From assembly GCA_009694045.1 (NCBI GenBank), contig SHVY01000001.1, positions 62,001-126,000 of the forward strand: DNA of 64,000 nucleotides. Reading direction: 5' to 3'. The stretch is from Alphaproteobacteria bacterium (lineage in GTDB: Bacteria; Pseudomonadota; Alphaproteobacteria; SP197). How positions within the stretch are numbered: the stretch's first letter is position 1; each line of letters begins with the position of its first letter. The position numbers were made by a program, and so were the translations under genes. This document shows, piece by piece, positions 52,536 through 54,345 of this stretch. A model generated the notes under the pieces. It saw only the letters and a list, made by a program, of their open reading frames with translations. It did no database searches and had not been told where the DNA came from.

Positions 52536-53966
52536 ATGACGTTCGACGTGACCGCGCGCCAAGACATCACGTTGGACGCCTACCACCGTGTTGCATGGCG
52601 CCGCGAGCCGGTGCGGATCGCCGCGCCCGCCCTGGCTCGGATCGCCGCGTGTCGGACGAGTTTTCTGGCCCTGCTCGACCATGATCCGGACGTCACGATC
52701 TACGGCGTGACGACTGGCTACGGCCAAAACGCCCGCACCAAGCTGAAGCCGGACGAACGCCGCGCCCATGCCCTGCGCCCGCCCTTCGCCGCCGCCGCGT
52801 CGTTCGGCGAGGCGGTGCCGGAACGGGTCGCGCGCGGCATCGTGCTGGCCCGACTGGCGAACTTCGTCGGCGGCCACGCGGCCGTGACGCCGCGCCTGGC
52901 CCAGGCCGTGGCGGCCATGCTCGATGGCCCGCCCCTGCCCCTGGTGCCGTGGCCCGGGCAAGGCGGCGCGGGGGAGATTCTATCACTGTCTCACCTCTTT
53001 AGCGACCTGGCGACGACCTTCGAACCGGGCGAGAAGGAGGTGCTCTCGCTGATCAACGGCTCGCCGAGCTCGGCCGCCCTGGTGGCCGACGCGGCGCTCG
53101 CCGCCCGCCGCCGCATCGCCATCGCGCTGCCGGTGTTCGCCCTCGCCGTCGAGGCGATTCGGGCTCCCCTCGAACACTACGCCGCCGATCTGGACGACTT
53201 GTGGGGCGACGTCCACGAGGCCGAGGCCCTGCGCGGACTCCGCCGGCTGCTGGCGGGCGCCAGCCGGGACCGGCGGCCGTATCAGGCGCCGGTCAGCTAT
53301 CGCATTCTCCCCCGGGTTCTTGGGCAGGCGTACCGTGCCGTTGCCCGCGCCGAGGAAGCGGCCAGGATCAGTCTCGCCTCGGTCAGCGATAACCCGGTCT
53401 ATCTGCCGCCCGATCCCGACCACCGCTTCGGGCGGGTCTATTCCACGGGCGGCTACCACAACAGCATGGCGACCCCGGCGCTCGACGATCTGGCGGCCGT
53501 CTGGGCCGACCTTTGCCTGCTGGCCGACCGCCAGTTGACGAAGCTGCTGGACGGCCGCTATTCGCTGCTGCCGGACCAACTGGTCGGCGCCGGAAGCGAG
53601 GCCTACATCGGCTGCCTGGCGATGGCGACGGTGGGCTACACCGAACAGGCGAGGGCCGCCGCCAGCCGAACCCTGCTGCCGGGCAGCGAAAGCGGCGGGT
53701 TCGGACAGAACGACGTGGCGCCCCTGACCTTCCTCGCCTGGTCCAAGGAGCGCGAAGCGGGCTGGTGCATCGAAGCGGCGCTCGCCAACCTTGCCGTGGT
53801 CGCGTCGCAGGCGCTGTTCGTCACCCAGCGCGTGGCGCCAGCCAACCTGGCGGAATTTCTCGACGACGTGCGAAAGATCGTGCCGCCGCTCACCCGCGCC
53901 GTGCGACCGGGGCTCGAGGTCGCACCGCTGGCGGACCACTTCCGGCGGCGGGTTTTCGAAGGATAG
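52536..53966 (+). CDS. Aromatic amino acid lyase (HAL/PAL) family protein lacking the MIO triad
   Basis: Codes for 476 residues from ATG 52536. The HAL/PAL fold is evident: VTIYGVTTGYGQNARTKLKP (catalytic Tyr56 loop), SLINGSPSSAALVADAALAA, QAPVSYRILPRVLGQAYRAV, ASVSDNPVYLPPD, and a late SGGFGQNDVAPLTFLAW. At the position of the Ala-Ser-Gly triad that forms the MIO cofactor (GASGDLAPLSH in the family) this protein has GGAGEILSLSH, so the triad is Gly144-Ala145-Gly146 and the Ser is absent. Without that Ser, MIO formation as known is impossible. It may be inactive, use another mechanism, or have another role. It is followed four bases later by a Cupin_3 gene. Confidence 0.82.
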   Translation: MTFDVTARQDITLDAYHRVAWRREPVRIAAPALARIAACRTSFLALLDHDPDVTIYGVTTGYGQNARTKLKPDERRAHALRPPFAAAASFGEAVPERVARGIVLARLANFVGGHAAVTPRLAQAVAAMLDGPPLPLVPWPGQGGAGEILSLSHLFSDLATTFEPGEKEVLSLINGSPSSAALVADAALAARRRIAIALPVFALAVEAIRAPLEHYAADLDDLWGDVHEAEALRGLRRLLAGASRDRRPYQAPVSYRILPRVLGQAYRAVARAEEAARISLASVSDNPVYLPPDPDHRFGRVYSTGGYHNSMATPALDDLAAVWADLCLLADRQLTKLLDGRYSLLPDQLVGAGSEAYIGCLAMATVGYTEQARAAASRTLLPGSESGGFGQNDVAPLTFLAWSKEREAGWCIEAALANLAVVASQALFVTQRVAPANLAEFLDDVRKIVPPLTRAVRPGLEVAPLADHFRRRVFEG

Positions 53967-53970
53967 GACC

Positions 53971-54345
53971 GTGGATGTCATCGACATGATTCGCCGCATC
54001 GCCGGCCCGGCCGCCGATGAACCGATTCTCGAGAGCTGGGGACCGCCCAGCCACATCATCGCCGGCCGCCCCATGGTCTCCGGCGCCAACGTCCTGGCCA
54101 GCTACAACGGGGCATTCAGCGTCGGGGTCTGGCAGTGCACACCGGGAAAGTGGCGGGTGACCTACGCCCAGGACGAACTCAGCGTCATGCTCGCGGGCCG
54201 GCTGCTGATCACCGACCCGGATGGCAAGTCACGCCGCTTCGGCGCCGGCGACTCCTTCGCGGTTCCGGCCGGATTCCGCGGCACCTGGGAGGTCATGGAG
54301 ACGGTCCGCCGCATCTTCGCCGTGCATCAGTCCCGCGCCGCCTGA
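53971..54345 (+). CDS. Cupin_3 (DUF861) family protein
   Basis: Codes for 124 residues from GTG 53971, four bases after the lyase-like gene. The double-stranded beta-helix is compact: VGVWQCTPGKWRVTYAQDEL, SVMLAGRLLITDPDGKSRRF, GAGDSFAVPAGFRGTWEVME. This is the Cupin_3 arrangement also seen in (S)-ureidoglycine aminohydrolase. The usual first metal-binding His pair is absent, as is common in this subfamily. Tight pairing with the MIO-less lyase suggests a joint function, unknown at present. Confidence 0.78.
   Translation: MDVIDMIRRIAGPAADEPILESWGPPSHIIAGRPMVSGANVLASYNGAFSVGVWQCTPGKWRVTYAQDELSVMLAGRLLITDPDGKSRRFGAGDSFAVPAGFRGTWEVMETVRRIFAVHQSRAA

Follow-up and report, generated by a model that had tools for sequence, protein, structure and literature searches.

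Within the window analysed here, a stretch of 64,000 nucleotides of an alphaproteobacterial contig (SHVY01000001.1), a gene on the forward strand (52536..53966) codes for a protein of 476 residues that has the fold of the MIO-dependent ammonia-lyases and lacks the MIO serine. We read it, with a probability of about 45%, as an MIO-independent C-N lyase, ergothionase-like in its working and placed outside the ergothionase clade, that would act on a substrate of the aromatic betaine type. This is the simplest account of the fold, of the residues that are kept, of the missing electrophile and of the gene neighbours taken together. For the window copy the assignment is drawn from its relatives, 128 distinct sequences that fall with it in a single clade (support 100/100).

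The window protein matches PF00221 (6.7e-58) in two stretches, and the break between them is the MIO site. There, residues 141-148 read GQGGAGEI (52956..52979, forward strand). Codons 144-147 are GGC GCG GGG GAG, and the corresponding G144, A145, G146 and E147 align with the G, A, G and D of canonical proteins (39/39 rows at each column). As a consequence, a deleted serine (GASGD to GA-GE), together with a change of Asp to Glu147, describes the former MIO loop with fewer changes than a replaced triad does. The first-pass annotation had seen the triad as gone, replaced by Gly-Ala-Gly. Its disappearance is borne out, with GA-GE and no serine at the site; replacement is not what the alignment with the 39 canonical rows favours. 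Whichever description is preferred, deleted or replaced, the MIO serine is missing from this protein. The same annotation had held that the lyase fold was retained, with the tyrosine loop and the SDNP and GQND motifs, and all of these are present.

What the loss leaves behind can be followed in an alignment of the 128 distinct clade sequences with the 39 canonical proteins, where columns were assigned by HAL residue numbering and Tyr53 of HAL is taken by us to be the base. Tyr56 (52701..52703, forward strand), the equivalent of this catalytic tyrosine (Tyr53/Tyr52), is found in 127/128 clade rows and 39/39 canonical rows. Asn174 (53055..53057, forward strand), equivalent to HAL Asn195, is kept in 127/128 clade rows, and Gly146, Glu147, Gln250 and Arg256 are kept in all 128, the last two bounding a segment (53283..53303, forward strand) that carries the equivalents of HAL Gln277 and Arg283. 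By contrast, HAL His83, Tyr280 and Glu414 have no counterpart in the clade: His, Tyr and Glu, respectively, are missing from these columns in all 128 rows. The window protein has Ala86, Val253 and Asn392 there, and Tyr307 in place of Phe329. Across the clade, the Tyr280 column holds Val (124) or Ile (4), the Glu414 column Asn (61), Asp (57), Thr (7) or Ser (3), and the Phe329 column mostly Tyr (112 of 128). Serine stands at position 145 in only 4/128 sequences. A single row, a paralogue from a 2.7-Mb alphaproteobacterium (G100; L219:7628-9073, reverse strand), has ASG at the triad (GQDASGET) and might have regained MIO; in 18 further rows an ASG string lies several residues upstream, away from the triad. 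In the HAL of Geobacillus, the accessible part of the published mutagenesis reports that Y52F, H82L, N194D and E411D are dead, with H82L and E411D inactive on histidine, and that Q274N, R280K and F325Y are weakened (PMC11432326). Judged from the aligned sequences, the clade keeps the residue set predicted to remove a proton and to bind a carboxylate, while MIO and the histidine-specific set are lost. Membership among the MIO-dependent lyases and aminomutases is rejected for the window protein: the fold and the four equivalents Y56, N174, Q250 and R256 are there, and the Ala-Ser-Gly triad and the three further residues are not. Ordinary HutH function is likewise rejected on the missing His83 and Glu414 equivalents.

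An AlphaFold2 model of the window protein, built with 54 clade sequences, reached a pLDDT of 94.4 and a pTM of 0.93. Its best matches in the PDB are tied between a tyrosine aminomutase (Z 39.0; 2.2 A over 459 residues) and ergothionase (Z 38.9; 2.1 A over 464 residues), followed by the HAL of Pseudomonas putida (Z 37.9), the fumarases being far behind (Z about 13). Foldseek returned chain F of ergothionase (6s7j_F) at a TM score of 0.89; when a 91-residue fragment was compared with the PDB, ergothionase was not among the matches.

Ergothionase, a HAL/PAL-like enzyme without MIO, releases trimethylamine from ergothioneine, as stated in the accessible portion of PMC13405746. The expectation of the first-pass annotation that elimination should not work without the serine does not follow in view of this enzyme, whose structure 6s7j has a triad without Ser. 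In alignment with a homologue that we met in a complete ergothioneine-utilization cluster (L246), the 6s7j site reads SSIGEGDI, one residue short and free of serine. The Treponema denticola enzyme (6s7j/6s7q) thus shares with our clade the HAL fold, the absence of MIO and the shortened site. It differs in that only 18% of residues are identical to the window protein in the structural alignment, in that ergothionase-like proteins sit in another clade (99/92) than that of the window protein (100/100), and in that the Asn174 region of the ergothionase-type L246 protein is unlike that of the clade. The L246 protein itself has 6s7j as its best PDB match (9.7e-39), and its cluster holds a thiourocanate hydratase (1038 bits for a cut-off of 930), a thiohydantoin desulfurase (600/440), ErtE (601/520), ErtD (798/600) and a binding protein of the glycine-betaine type (OpuAC). 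With the MIO-dependent HAL, PAL, TAL and aminomutases (1b8f, 2ohy, 2o6y) the clade has in common the fold, Tyr56, Asn174, Gln250 and Arg256; it differs from them by having no triad serine and no equivalents of His83, Tyr280 and Glu414.

The family is large. In a tree of 51 rows built with the careful search, the clade forms one side of a branch supported at 100/100. Another group lacking ASG, in which GSVGY stands in place of GSVGASGD, is also supported at 100/100, and a third, ASDL, which includes the ergothionase-like L246 protein, at 99/92. A quick tree joined the clade with the ASDL group, apart from all others, with an unstarred support of 84; loss of MIO in the clade and in the ergothionases may have been one shared event or several. 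Five rows of the first tree carried GASGD; where retained afterwards, they went into the counts as MIO rows. The GSVGY proteins, found beside a canonical HutH (L182, L183, L186, L192 and others), are HAL-family members by sequence and lack ASG as the clade does; they differ from it in forming a separate group, in keeping His83 and Glu414, and in being much nearer to HutH. The third group (GSxGxS/A-DL; L020, L021, L023, L233, L239 and L246) has members in the window's own taxonomic family. Elsewhere we observed very divergent HAL-like proteins with starts resembling signal peptides (L221-L223, genome G259), two of which have a GEGDL site resembling that of T. denticola ergothionase, and a HAL-like gene with one TAA (L225:8796-10001, reverse strand) beside genes for an MTTB-family methyltransferase and an apparent sarcosine oxidase. 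Intact GASGD HAL proteins adjoin ErtD/ErtE-like genes in one locus (L247:6827-8440) and desulfurase-like and urocanase genes in another (L215:7089-8699).

The window genome (G000) codes for three PF00221 proteins, and none of the three has ASG at the site, the two others reading GNGSAGEI (contig C12) and GQDSEGEL (contig C1). In searches where genomes were not chosen by motif, any match was seen in 30 of 61 relatives, with close homologues (at least 38% identity) mostly in the same family; matches at 1e-20 or better occurred in 17/385 genomes of the class, and clade members in 5/398 genomes of the phylum, the window genome included, with the next scores dropping from 2e-122 to 2e-40. A scan of named genomes gave 159 relatives, of which the best 80 loci, picked by peptide patterns that included the GE site in one of them, were kept. 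Many belong to Mesorhizobium, others to Rhizobium freirei, Dongia, Inquilinus, Tistlia, Oceanibacterium and Ferruginivarius, and copies are borne on plasmids in Rhizobium tropici CIAT 899 and R. jaguaris. A few relatives come from records labelled Chloroflexota, Mycobacterium or Gammaproteobacteria, where misbinning or misnaming is suspected. Genome G100 has 52 PF00221 stretches, seven urocanases and at least 23 genes of the MIO-less clade, some in runs of five and six (L156, L157, L209, L211-L214, L217-L219). Among the papers that our literature search covered there was none on this clade, and the accessible part of PMC9002059 names no MIO-less homologues. We count it as the second large lineage in the HAL superfamily to lack MIO, one that probably works as ergothionase does.

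Gene neighbourhoods were compared at 106 distinct loci, after removal of eight duplicates (L057, L110, L113, L125, L126, L131, L159 and L160) from 114. The counts cover a chosen set of query genes and include related species, and hence are not independent events: UbiD was found 12 times, UbiX 7, M20 amidohydrolase 6, ErtD-like hydantoinase 5, aldehyde dehydrogenase 4, urocanase 3 and cupin 2; none of these partners was present at 76/106 loci. The ErtD-like match of L103 and the M20 match of L175 are fragments. All four loci scored against NCBIfam cut-offs have ErtD, ErtE or both above them: ErtD in L097 (776/600) and L102 (690/600), ErtE in L070 (564/520), L097 (561/520) and L176 (575/520). 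UbiD adjoins the clade gene in L037 and L050-L053; the L037 and L097 proteins are 75% identical, which indicates that one type of UbiD recurs in both of these settings. Of the two other copies in the window genome, that on C12 is coupled to UbiD and that on C1 is translationally coupled, through a TGATG overlap, to a SAM methyltransferase (L004). In R. tropici (L175), UbiX and UbiD accompany the M20 remnant. At L164 the clade gene and the end of a urocanate hydratase gene (945/375) overlap. The best model for this hydratase is plain hutU and not the thiourocanate ones, so that the locus may be concerned with histidine or hercynine and not with ergothioneine; the urocanase of L122 is 90% identical to the L164 enzyme. 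In G100, genes for an S-methyl thiourocanate hydratase (891/880) and for an S-methyl thiohydantoin desulfurase-like protein (409, under the cut-off of 450) precede five tandem copies (L156), and six more copies lie at L157. No weight is given to the missing canonical HutH in G000 and G377, because the urocanase genes of these genomes lie near contig ends.

The window copy has more modest company, namely a cupin, a prepilin peptidase and an oxidoreductase, with no Ert, UbiD or urocanase gene as neighbour and no ErtE above cut-off anywhere in the window genome. Its stop codon ends at 53966, and a GTG start four bases later opens the gene of a Cupin_3 protein of 124 residues (53971..54345, forward strand; 3.1e-23) that is likely co-transcribed with it. 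The arrangement noted in the first-pass annotation is thus confirmed, and no copy of the same gene pair with Ala-Ser-Gly retained was seen in the loci examined. The suggestion of a general two-protein system, checked by asking whether the cupin always accompanies the homologues, fails: outside the window the cupin adjoins the gene in one other genome (L039, which shares a contig with the discarded L057), and it is absent from the same-family loci L041-L044 despite the same tad-pilus synteny. An obligate partnership is accordingly ruled out. Also rejected as functional partners were the genes of the tad pilus and of a large oxidoreductase, which lie on the opposite strand and reflect synteny only.

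How could such a protein work? Arg256 would hold the carboxylate of the substrate and Tyr56 would take off the beta proton, after which the amine, already a good leaving group, would depart without covalent activation by MIO. The leaving group would most likely be the trimethylammonium of an aromatic or heteroaromatic betaine, in some paralogues perhaps one of histidine or thiohistidine type; where relatives have urocanase-like, UbiD/UbiX or Ert enzymes, these may take over the resulting acrylate. UbiD enzymes decarboxylate unsaturated acids of this kind. In favour of such a lyase are the retention of Tyr56, Asn174, Gln250 and Arg256 in a clade that has lost the serine, His83, Tyr280 and Glu414, the place of an MIO-less ergothionase as joint best structural match, and the Ert, urocanase-type and UbiD/UbiX neighbours of some relatives. 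Against it stand the many loci without any queried partner, the lack of Ert, UbiD or urocanase neighbours around the window copy, the fit of the L164 urocanase to plain hutU, the ErtD/ErtE-like genes beside an MIO-containing protein (L247), and the separate position of the ergothionase-type clade on the tree. A bolder version, to which we give little chance, has the clade as a large unrecognized family of cofactor-free betaine lyases in which N-methylation of the substrate makes MIO dispensable. The quaternary ammonium would come from a methyltransferase or from the environment, and only the beta proton would be left for the HAL fold to remove. The SAM methyltransferase coupled to the C1 copy may be cited for it, and the abundance and tandem runs of clade genes in G100 are what one would expect if these enzymes had diversified to serve many betaines.

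Other explanations have to be weighed against the betaine lyase. The substrate might carry an amine that is free or bears a single substituent, or else a different leaving group, and be handled by an MIO-free lyase, hydratase or isomerase in which a remodelled pocket (Glu147, Val253, Asn392, Tyr307) replaces MIO; in many relatives UbiD would then receive the unsaturated product. The invariance of Glu147 fits this proposal, as does UbiD, the commonest partner, which need not imply an imidazole compound; at L164, moreover, the clade gene occupies the place of hutH beside hutU in a genome where no other PF00221 protein was found. It is nonetheless on the unlikely side, as the equivalents of two residues whose change inactivates Geobacillus HAL on histidine, His83 and Glu414, are lost (accessible part of PMC11432326), and the second urocanase of G377 is at a contig end, so that the assembly may lack the hutH that goes with it. 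The changes to Glu and Asn in the pocket, with amidohydrolases nearby in some loci, could also point to other chemistry carried out by the HAL fold, such as hydrolysis, ring opening or cyclization. This is decidedly unlikely: the Tyr, Asn, Gln and Arg that are kept belong to an elimination site, and hydrolytic steps have their own enzymes within the clusters.

Chances are slimmer still that the protein is catalytically dead and has a binding or regulatory role, which in the window it would share with its cupin. The missing MIO serine, the loss of three active-site residues of HAL and the closeness of the cupin gene would agree with this role; conservation of four catalytic-site residues in 127-128 of 128 sequences, the rarity of the cupin, and neighbours that are catabolic enzymes and uptake proteins argue against it. 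As for sequencing error or a pseudogene, some relatives are indeed broken (L056 is split into two frames and the G500:C68 copy has one internal TGA), and yet the window frame is open and its site is common to 128 distinct relatives. We therefore discard this explanation, as the first-pass annotation had done for error.

Proteins of the HAL/PAL type routinely receive the name of histidine or aromatic ammonia-lyase, and members of the MIO-less clade, with its reach of 159 relatives in one motif-based scan and many in Mesorhizobium, would be misnamed in this way. If MIO-free elimination of an amine proves true, the principle of ergothionase would extend to a second lineage of the HAL fold. The role of MIO would then become directly testable, with the same fold and the same proton-removing residues at hand with and without the electrophile, and trimethylamine or similar amines in soil, in legume nodules and in the sea would have a new source in this clade.
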